This document shows, piece by piece, positions 20,602 through 23,660 of a DNA stretch of 42,636 nt. Position 1 is the first letter of the stretch; the number at the start of each line of letters is the position of its first letter. Source of the stretch: Acidobacteriota bacterium (lineage in GTDB: Bacteria; Acidobacteriota; UBA6911); NCBI GenBank assembly GCA_003225335.1, contig QHZE01000418.1:14787-57422 (forward strand), written 5' to 3'. Below the pieces are notes generated by a model. That model saw only the letters and a list, made by a program, of their open reading frames with translations. It did not search any database and was not told where the DNA came from. Both the position numbers and the translations under genes were made by a program.

Positions 20602-21711
20602 CTAGAATTTCATTGGCATCACGACATAGCGATACTCCATATCTGCCGCGCCTGCAGGGCAAAGCATTCCTTGAGTCTCACTGTCCTTTACCGCGATAGA
20701 GACGGTTTCAGTCCCGCAGGCGCCGAGGAAATCAATGAGGTATTGCGGGTTGAACCCGATGGCCAGAGACGTGCCGTCGTAATCCACAGGCAAGACCTCC
20801 CTGGCCTCACCTGCGTCGGCGCTGCTTGCCGTCATCTCTACAGCTCCACGGCTGAACGAAAACCGGATCGCTCGCACCCTTTCATCCGACATCACCGCGG
20901 CTCGACGTATCCCATCGGCCATCGCGCGCGTAGATGCAATGATTTTCTTGTCATTGTCCTTCGGTATGACCATCTCATAGTTAGGAAACTGGCCGGCCAG
21001 GACCCGCGAAACCAGCCTCTTCCCCCCCAGGGAGAAAAAGAGATGGTTTTCATCGCGGCCAAATTCCACAAGCATGTCCTCCGCGCCGACCAACTTCTGA
21101 AGCTCTACCAGTGTCTTCCGAGGAATGAGAGCGCGTATCTCTCCATCAACTCCAGCGAAATCCACGGCCTTGGAAACGGACGCAAGGCGGTGCCCATCGG
21201 TCGCCACCATCCGCATCTCGTGAGGCGTCAAAACCATCAGCGCCCCATTCAGCGAATATCTGGACTCCTCCTGGGTGATCGCAAACATGGTCCGTTGGAT
21301 CATTCCCTTCAAAAGGCCGCCAGGAACTGAAACACTGGAAGCTCCCAGCTCCGGAATGGAAGGAAAGTTCTCCTTCGGTAAGCCCACCACCTTATATTCA
21401 GAATTTCCTGAGCGGATCTGCACCCAGTCATTCTCGAGAAGTGAAAAATCGATGTCTGCGTCTTCGGGCAACAGCCGGACAATATCGAAGATCCTCCGCG
21501 CGGAAAGCGTCGTTGTGCCCGCCACGCGGACTTCACCCGGGCAGCCGCAGCAGATGCTCACGTCCAGGTCCGTGGCCGTGATATCCACGCGATCGCCAGA
21601 AGCGCTGAGAAGTATGTTGGACAAGATAGGGATCGTCGTTTTCCTCTCGATCACGCCCTGAACAAGGTTCAACTCACTTAGTATTGCGTTTCGCTTTACG
21701 GTAAATTCCAT
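20602..21711 (-). CDS. dnaN: DNA polymerase III subunit beta (sliding clamp)
   Basis: 369 aa, the usual clamp length. It forms a ring dimer that tethers the replicative polymerase. It starts MEFTVKRNAILSELNLVQGV and ends EYRYVVMPMKF, close to the standard C-terminal MPM motif. SRYSLNGALMVLTPHEMRMVATDGHRLA marks the second domain. The ATG at 21711 is preceded by AAGGAG eleven bases upstream. Upstream frame residues come from a repeat and are excluded. It is directly downstream of the candidate unwinding segment. Confidence 0.97.
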   Translation of the reverse strand: MEFTVKRNAILSELNLVQGVIERKTTIPILSNILLSASGDRVDITATDLDVSICCGCPGEVRVAGTTTLSARRIFDIVRLLPEDADIDFSLLENDWVQIRSGNSEYKVVGLPKENFPSIPELGASSVSVPGGLLKGMIQRTMFAITQEESRYSLNGALMVLTPHEMRMVATDGHRLASVSKAVDFAGVDGEIRALIPRKTLVELQKLVGAEDMLVEFGRDENHLFFSLGGKRLVSRVLAGQFPNYEMVIPKDNDKKIIASTRAMADGIRRAAVMSDERVRAIRFSFSRGAVEMTASSADAGEAREVLPVDYDGTSLAIGFNPQYLIDFLGACGTETVSIAVKDSETQGMLCPAGAADMEYRYVVMPMKF

Positions 21712-21771
21712 GGAAGTCCATGCTCCTTGGAGTTTTGGCTTGGCGGAACGACGGATTATAACAGAAACATC

Positions 21772-21856
21772 TTTTTCACCACAAAAACACAAAGATCTCA
21801 AAAATCCACACAGAGAAAAAACTGACGGCTCTCTTTGTGGTGTTTTTCTATTTATT
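21772..21856. repeat. Hairpin repeat abutting the AT-rich origin segment
   Basis: The arms are 21777-21797 (TTCACCACAAAAACACAAAG) and about 21834-21850 (TCTTTGTGGTGTTTTTC). It belongs to the accessory-repeat group of this chromosome and sits between the candidate unwinding element and dnaN, where the dnaN promoter should be. Confidence 0.6.
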
Positions 21857-22048
21857 ATTTATATGTTTTTATTCAGTAGTAGTAGCAGCGGCTGTGAATT
21901 TGTTGAAAATTACCCTAACTTATTGGGCGAGACTCCGATAGGTTCCGGATAACTTCGGGAGACCGCCGTGCGCATACGGGTTCCAGATGTGGAAACCTTT
22001 GGAACCGTAAATTTTCACAGGGAACCATTGATGCGGCGGTGTGAAAAA
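21841..22048. other. Candidate oriC unwinding segment with DnaA-trio, between dnaA and dnaN
   Basis: Read on the dnaA-coding (minus) strand, this spacer has several DnaA boxes matching TTWTNCACA. The box at 22048-22040 (TTTTTCACA) matches 9/9. Boxes at 21996-21988 (GTTTCCACA) and, on the plus strand, 22011-22019 (ATTTTCACA) match 8/9. A weak box at 21901-21893 (AAATTCACA) matches 7/9. Next comes GCCGCTG, then CTACTACTACTG (TAG trios on the complement, 21874-21888), then an AT-rich run at 21841-21873. Box, GC patch, trio and AT run follow the order and polarity of the Bacillus DnaA-trio unwinding system. Confidence 0.75.
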
Positions 22049-22058
22049 CAGGAGAAGC

Positions 22059-23378
22059 TCAGCGGAAAGAACTGATTATCTTGTTTACTGCCGTGTGAAT
22101 TTCTGGGTCTGTTTTTTGCAGTTCTTCGATCTTGCGAATCGAGTGCAGAACAGTGGTGTGGTGCTTTCCACCAAAATCTTTTCCAATTTGAGGCAGTGAC
22201 AACCCGGTGAGTTTCTTACAGACAAACATGCCGATCTGGCGCGGTAGGGCGACCGCGCGGGAGTTGTTCTTCGATTTCAACTGATCCGGCTTGAGGCCGA
22301 AATAAACGGAAACTGCGCGGATGACCATTTCTGAAGAAGCGGTCTCTCTCTCCCCTTTGACAAGGTCCTTCAGAACTTCTTTGGCATAGCTCAGGTCGAT
22401 ATCCTCCGTATCGATTCCGTCCAGGGACGCACGAGCCAGGAGGCGCGTAAGAGCTCCGTTAAGATCTCGGATGTTCGATCGGATCGAGCTTACCAGATGC
22501 ATGGCGACTGCATCGGGTATCGCCGCATTCTCGGACGCGGCGCGCCTTTTCAGGATCGCGAGTCTTGTTTCCAGGTCCGGGGGCTGGATGTCGGCGATCA
22601 AACCCCATGCGAAGCGCGAGTTGAGCCGTTCCTCGATCGTAGGGATGTCCTTGGGCGGGCAGTCGCTGGTAATGACGATCTGTTTCTGCGCGTCGTAGAG
22701 AGCGTTGAACGTGTGGAAGAACTCCTGCTGGGTACGCTCTTTGCCCGCGAGAAACTGAATGTCGTCCATCATGAGCACGTCGATTTCGCGGTACTTCTGC
22801 CGGAACTGGAAGGTCGTTTCGTGGCGGATCGAAGTTATCAAATCGTTGAGGAAGGTGTCTGAAGACATGTACAGGAACCGCAGCCTGCCGTTTCTTTGGC
22901 GGATGTAGTGGCCGATGGCGTGCATGAGGTGCGTTTTTCCCAGCCCCGTGCCCCCGTAGATATAGAGCGGGTTGTAGGCCTTGGAGGGTCTTTCCGCGAC
23001 TGCCCGCGCAGCTGCCTGAGCGAACTGATTGCTGGACCCTACCACGAATGTTTCAAACGTGTTGGCGGAACACAACGTGCCCTGACACCGTTCGTCCCTC
23101 TCTGGAGGATCCGCCGGGGCCGACGTGCGTTCTTGCCCGGCGACGCTTCCCGCCCGGACCAGAATCTGCAGGCGTGAGTGAACCGCTTCATCGACGGCAT
23201 TTTGAAGGATCTCGGAATAATTCGCGAGGAGCCACTTCCTGAAGGTTTCGTTGGGAACCGAGAGGCGGAGCAGCGTTCCGTCGCAACCCTCGAATACGAT
23301 CGGGCGAAACCACGTGTCGTAGCTCTCCTGGTTGACACGCTTTTGAACGGTTGTGAGGACCTGAGCCCAGACATCCAT
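22059..23378 (-). CDS. dnaA: Chromosomal replication initiator DnaA
   Basis: 439 aa. It binds DnaA boxes and opens the origin. Domain I (MDVWAQVLTTVQKRV to ~75) is followed by a short linker. The AAA+ core begins FVVGSSNQFAQAAARAVAE, with Walker A GGTGLGKT at 142-149, Walker B LMMDDIQFL and the arginine-finger segment LNSRFAWGL. Domain IV ends with the DNA-binding signature FGGKHHTTVLHSIRKIE. The ATG at 23378 has no strong ribosome-binding site. Candidate origin segments lie on both sides of the gene. Confidence 0.98.
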   Translation of the reverse strand: MDVWAQVLTTVQKRVNQESYDTWFRPIVFEGCDGTLLRLSVPNETFRKWLLANYSEILQNAVDEAVHSRLQILVRAGSVAGQERTSAPADPPERDERCQGTLCSANTFETFVVGSSNQFAQAAARAVAERPSKAYNPLYIYGGTGLGKTHLMHAIGHYIRQRNGRLRFLYMSSDTFLNDLITSIRHETTFQFRQKYREIDVLMMDDIQFLAGKERTQQEFFHTFNALYDAQKQIVITSDCPPKDIPTIEERLNSRFAWGLIADIQPPDLETRLAILKRRAASENAAIPDAVAMHLVSSIRSNIRDLNGALTRLLARASLDGIDTEDIDLSYAKEVLKDLVKGERETASSEMVIRAVSVYFGLKPDQLKSKNNSRAVALPRQIGMFVCKKLTGLSLPQIGKDFGGKHHTTVLHSIRKIEELQKTDPEIHTAVNKIISSFR

Positions 23379-23394: not shown

Positions 23395-23660
23395 GGGAAT
23401 AGTGAAGGGGATGAAAAAAACTTCGGCGCGGATCCAAGAGTTTTCCACAGAATTTTCCACAGCTGTGGAAAACACAACACTACTTACCAGCAGTTTTCCC
23501 CATTTTCTGCTGCCCGAAGCGTCTTTCGATTCGGTTGATTTTCTTGTTGTGAGCCGTTCTTTTTTTCTGCGGTTTCTGCTAATCAACCCGACCGCGCGAG
23601 AAAGTAGCACACGCATTTTTCACGCGCAAGAAAAAAAGAATAAAAAATTTTTCCTGCATG
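23395..23660. other. DnaA-box cluster upstream of dnaA (second origin segment)
   Basis: Two direct TTTTCCACA boxes (23441-23449, 23453-23461) and one inverted TGTGGAAAA (23464-23472) are packed in 32 bases; the last two form a 20-bp palindrome. A near box TTTTCCCCA lies at about 23494. AT-rich DNA (AAAAAAAGAATAAAAAATTT) is at 23628-23653. Clusters like this upstream of dnaA act in initiation or autoregulation. With the dnaA-dnaN spacer it forms a bipartite origin layout. The rest of the spacer, to 23818, has no gene. Confidence 0.8.

Follow-up and report, generated by a model that had tools for sequence, protein, structure and literature searches.

The basal unwinding system (BUS) of Bacillus subtilis is the closest described counterpart of the element reported here. 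Under the published BUS rules, a DnaA box may carry up to 2 mismatches, the spacer may span up to 16 bp, no fewer than 3 triplets are needed and the better box lies 10 to 13 bp from the trios; most commonly, though not obligatorily, a second box in the same orientation, with up to 4 mismatches, accompanies it (PMC8287927). The trio rule itself is loose (NAN three times, with the middle adenine on the strand that DnaA binds and a preference for GAT; PMC8287927). In published trios, 3'-GAT-5' is found on the strand that does not carry the box consensus; B. subtilis has CTACTATTACTTCTACTA on its top strand and trios on its bottom strand (PMC10201434). A survey of 2070 origins predicted potential BUS elements in 85% of them (PMC8287927), which makes a BUS at the present locus an expected result. 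No origin study for Acidobacteriota was found in the literature searched. We describe a candidate BUS between dnaA and dnaN of an uncultured acidobacterium, and a sister subclade in which the same module is inverted.

Results

The window is the whole 42,636-nucleotide stretch analysed (assembly GCA_003225335.1, contig QHZE01000418.1, positions 14,787 to 57,422). A DnaA tree, in which several deep forks were weakly supported, placed it in Acidobacteriota near Blastocatellia. On the minus strand, dnaA (22059-23378; 439 aa; N-terminal, ATPase and helix-turn-helix domains; Pfam Bac_DnaA 1.5e-68, Bac_DnaA_C 1.8e-26, DnaA_N 3.6e-16) is followed by a 347-bp spacer (21712-22058, minus strand), the predicted downstream half of oriC, and by dnaN (20602-21711; 369 aa; Pfam DNA_pol3_beta domains; start in agreement with relatives). 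recF-, gyrB- and gyrA-like genes come after dnaA and dnaN, and dnaA, boxes, trios and dnaN are contiguous in the window. A consensus scan of the spacer gave no full sigma-70 promoter and no terminator; only a conserved TATAAT (21755-21760, minus strand), the probable -10 of a dnaN promoter, was retained, with TATAATC in the corresponding position in relatives of the same family. No Rfam match to an RNA element was obtained across 19-25 kb.

Five spacer sites match TTWTNCACA at 8/9 or better, compared with 0.44 expected from window density. Read along the minus strand, the spacer holds TTTTTCACA (22040-22048; 9/9), ATTTTCACA (22011-22019; 8/9, oppositely oriented on the plus strand), GTTTCCACA (21988-21996; 8/9), TTTTCAACA (21901-21909; 8/9), AATTCACA, a GC-rich link GCCG (21889-21892), the triplets CTG CTA CTA CTA CTG (21874-21888) and an AT-rich run (21845-21873; AATAAAAACATATAAATAATAAATAG; first 40 bp 85% A+T, spacer 57%). 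TTTTCAACA adjoins AATTCACA as the better member of a co-oriented tandem pair; it holds the position of B. subtilis box 6 and is found at the same place in relatives. The downstream weak box, AAATTCACA (21893-21901, minus strand), holds the position of B. subtilis box 7 and overlaps the upstream box by one base. TTTTCAACA has 2 mismatches to TTATCCACA, AAATTCACA has 3 on the same strand, and 12 bp separate TTTTCAACA from the first CTG; both core boxes are off consensus, TTTTCAACA being without a C that most boxes keep. The link reads GGCC, GCTC, GGAC, GCAC and similar in relatives. An imperfect 12-bp inverted repeat, GGTTCCAGATGT/ACCTTTGGAACC (21979-22006), overlaps the distal box GTTTCCACA.

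The plus strand of the trio run reads 3'-GAC GAT GAT GAT GAC-5', that is, five triplets with a central A, three of them exact 3'-GAT-5'. Because published trios lie opposite the box-consensus strand (PMC10201434), DnaA is expected on the plus strand, with the CTACTACTA-bearing strand displaced. The initial annotation had named boxes, a weak box, a GC patch, trios and an AT-rich run in that order on the dnaA-coding strand, all of which were found, and the likeness it saw to the order and polarity of B. subtilis unwinding agrees with the published rules (PMC8287927). Several details had to be revised. Its three boxes at 8/9 or 9/9 stand, but the better box of the tandem pair had been overlooked; its patch GCCGCTG keeps GCCG as the link and yields CTG to the first trio; its short trio of three exact repeats is right for CTA but extends to five triplets with the flanking CTG; and its trios do run away from the box, but the strand expected to carry DnaA is the plus strand and not the one it chose.

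Both strands were scored for a box followed by a trio run, using weights chosen by hand to reflect the published consensus. The window element reached 25.4 bits and the best dinucleotide shuffle 20.7, with 0 of 200 shuffles attaining the window score. Real DNA was sampled as 1148 non-overlapping 347-bp tiles from the window contig and contigs of three relatives (G003, G013 and G008); two tiles equalled or exceeded the window score, both of them dnaA-dnaN spacers (G003 and G013). The 7.5-Mb assembly has a single match to the pattern TTCACA-N0-12-CTACTACTA, located at the origin element, and the reversed-pattern control gave 0 matches. Applied to Bacillus, Paenibacillus and Clostridium, the same scan recovered the element expected there.

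Alignment of relatives' spacers, one of the checks proposed in the initial annotation, bore out a conserved box-GC-trio order, the lack of which in close relatives the annotation had named as evidence against its proposal. Of the 11 same-family genomes with a readable spacer (window included), 10 beat every shuffle and one (G004) beat 197 of 200. With the first trio as the anchor of the alignment, the core in most members is TTTTCMACA-AATYCACA-2-4 G/C-rich bases-CTACTA; box and trio are 12 bp apart, and an A+T-rich run follows. Orientation is that of the window in 8/11 (weakly in G004 and G002), and the element is inverted as a unit in the other 3/11. Beyond the family, it occurs in two genomes of the same class (G016 and G031) and, in the phylum, in G038 and 23/69 sampled spacers; the others do not score.

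The three inverted genomes (G005, G008 and G009; loci L011, L008 and L010) carry the whole box-trio-AT module pointing toward dnaA, and 0/200 shuffles reach its score. In reverse complement, the G005 module reads TTTTCCACA, TATCCACA, GGACATT, CTACTACTACTG; the other two have CTT CTA CTA. dnaA and dnaN keep their position and direction, and the spacer ends, including the dnaN promoter, align collinearly with relatives, the core aligning in reverse only. In the DnaA tree these three species group together with 100/100 support inside a genus that is otherwise forward, so a single inversion explains all three. Outside the window's class, the same two-strand scan found 68/68 scorable genomes forward (45/45 in a named, Bacillota-rich set and 23/23 in the phylum sample, sets that may share a few species). 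No paper on an inverted BUS direction was found in the literature searched, which covered few subscription journals. Family f7 (L032-L034) was considered as a second inversion and rejected: its reverse-strand match (CTA CCA CCA or CTA TTA CAT), though above shuffles, abuts the dnaA coding end and is without an AT-rich run.

The spacer is nearly absent in families f5 and f8 and at one of two f9 dnaA loci; with almost no spacer, the origin there must be arranged differently. In f5 and f8, of the same class (L028, L029, L030 and L031), the dnaA-dnaN gap is 24-61 bp, too small for the origin element, and perfect boxes are kept upstream of dnaA. Three genomes of one genus (G029, G030 and G035) have two dnaA loci each, one G030 copy being cut by a contig end. 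The two DnaA proteins of G029 (L020 and L151) are 81% identical; one gene is closely followed by dnaN and the other by a seemingly GGDEF-type gene. G003 has several dnaN-like genes besides the dnaA-adjacent one (L040, L048, L049, L050 and L051; about 50-54% identity to window DnaN). A DnaA search at E <= 1e-80 gave no match in the whole of family f30 of the same phylum (G061, G071, G081 and others, some single-contig), whose DnaA may be divergent.

Upstream of dnaA, away from the trios, a box scan located the only cluster of perfect boxes, three copies of TTTTCCACA at 23441-23472 (23441 plus, 23453 plus, 23464 minus), and perfect boxes occupy a comparable position in nearly all same-family genomes. 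This cluster is probably the upstream half of oriC, a dnaA autoregulatory site, or both. Skew was read per contig in four genomes (the window's, whose assembly is split over 795 contigs, and G003, G013 and G008). Cumulative GC skew of the 57-kb window contig falls to -833 at the spacer, keeps a shallow floor over 21-33 kb and then rises; its minimum of -868 lies at 32.3 kb, about 10 kb from the spacer. In G003, G013 and G008, the lowest point falls about 7, 4 and 2 kb, respectively, from dnaA or dnaN. The far-off minimum that the initial annotation held would count against its proposal was not seen, since the skew turns over the 21-33 kb floor and relatives' minima lie about 2-8 kb from dnaA or dnaN. 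These data support an origin near dnaA at a resolution coarser than base level.

The best solved relative of the window DnaA is 8btg, presumably the B. subtilis BUS complex of PMC10721633. By ungapped ATPase-domain alignment to 8btg (offset 9), B. subtilis N187, I190 and R264 correspond to N178, I181 and R255, with N178 and R255 unchanged across eight relatives. In B. subtilis DnaA, N187 contacts a trio base, I190 contacts single-stranded DNA and R264 is the arginine finger. These conserved residues are common to DnaA proteins in general and are no proof that trios are used. The assembly (96.7% complete) contains a homologue of the helicase operator DciA and gave no match to DnaD-type PF07261, for which a B. 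subtilis control gave a match; a B. subtilis-like step, in which DnaD reads the strand opposite the trios, is therefore unlikely here, and the predicted helicase operator is probably DciA.

A copy of a dispersed palindromic repeat (21775-21844), with arms like TTCACCACAAAGACACAAAGA, separates the AT-rich run from the dnaN promoter and lies outside the BUS. The repeat has 121 matches (at most 2 mismatches) in its own assembly (45 near copies in one count), 33 in G016 of the same class and none across a search of 12 other genomes of its family; G003 carries a different sequence at its position. No paper on it was found in the literature searched, in which few subscription journals were covered.

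Discussion

We put the probability that 21845-21909 (minus strand) forms the unwinding core, or BUS, of the chromosome origin of this uncultured acidobacterium at roughly 0.86. This reading is based on sequence, order, spacing, conservation, skew context and conserved DnaA residues. The element lies between dnaA and dnaN with a box cluster, and contig-level skew turns close by in four genomes. By analogy with B. subtilis work (PMC6669920, PMC8287927, PMC10721633), we infer DnaA binding, strand choice, opening and helicase loading as follows. DnaA would bind the tandem boxes TTTTCAACA/AATTCACA as double-stranded DNA, and ATP-DnaA subunits would extend over the GCCG link onto the plus strand, one per trio. 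The oligomer would stretch and hold that strand, and the DNA would open on through the AT-rich run in the direction of dnaN, with helicases loading there. The distal spacer boxes and the triple cluster upstream of dnaA may raise the local DnaA level and probably regulate dnaA.

Opening might instead occur upstream of dnaA, beside the three perfect boxes at 23441-23472, with the spacer element serving as an auxiliary DnaA-binding region or surviving as a relic. That the sole perfect-box cluster is there and is kept in the family speaks for this arrangement, as does its retention in several same-class families with short spacers and no BUS. The upstream region, however, holds no convincing trio run (best window score 19.4, with one CTA in three triplets; same-family relatives at most 17), and the spacer element is conserved together with its spacing, which makes upstream opening improbable; a BUS upstream of dnaA was also considered as a candidate and set aside, its scores being mostly shuffle-like.

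Less probable still is that the boxes control transcription of dnaN, or read-through from dnaA, and that CTACTACTA is a conserved promoter feature and not an unwinding motif. There is indeed a downstream dnaN promoter with TATAAT, whose -10 recurs across the family, but the internal spacing of the core is constant while its distance and orientation to dnaN vary, and a promoter element is poorly suited to such a pattern. Chance resemblance in an AT-rich spacer could draw on the looseness of the published NAN rule and on the restriction of exact CTA to three triplets; with no shuffle reaching the score, only relatives' own origins matching it among the real tiles, and conservation across the family, we regard this as the most remote of the readings. 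As a BUS, the element is an additional, well-conserved box-trio example in Acidobacteriota, of a kind already known.

For the reversed spacers, we consider it fairly likely that the entire module was inverted in place in one same-family subclade, with genes collinear, and remains a working origin. If so, they would be a natural experiment, in which the BUS behaves as an autonomous unit that can face either way relative to dnaA-dnaN, even though nearly all bacteria scored here have a single direction. With forward and inverted origins so closely related, one could ask why nearly all bacteria point from dnaA to dnaN, and whether direction affects which helicase is loaded first.

The incC BUS of B. 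subtilis (boxes 6/7 and trios; PMC6669920, PMC8287927, PMC10721633) resembles the window in its place beside dnaA, its tandem co-oriented boxes, its GC-rich link and its trios running toward an AT-rich run, and the DnaA residues that contact its trios are conserved in window DnaA. A Bacillus locus (L086) reads TTATCCACA, TATTCACAAGCC, CTA CTA GTA CTT CTA, with the 12-bp distance and the dnaA-to-dnaN direction of the window. Compared with B. subtilis, the window has weaker core boxes (TTTTCAACA) and five triplets with CTG at both ends; its assembly has DciA, and no PF07261 DnaD-type protein was found in it; its perfect boxes are concentrated upstream of dnaA, and a dispersed repeat copy abuts its AT-rich run. 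In Escherichia coli oriC, DnaA boxes likewise lie beside an AT-rich unwinding element. That origin has been rearranged and is no longer beside dnaA (PMC6669920), whereas the origin elements of the window are contiguous with dnaA and dnaN. Helicobacter pylori oriC, from a different phylum and compared here by its published description, is reported to be a two-part origin too, with an initiation complex that works through both a double-stranded DnaA box and a single-stranded trio (PMC8235120).
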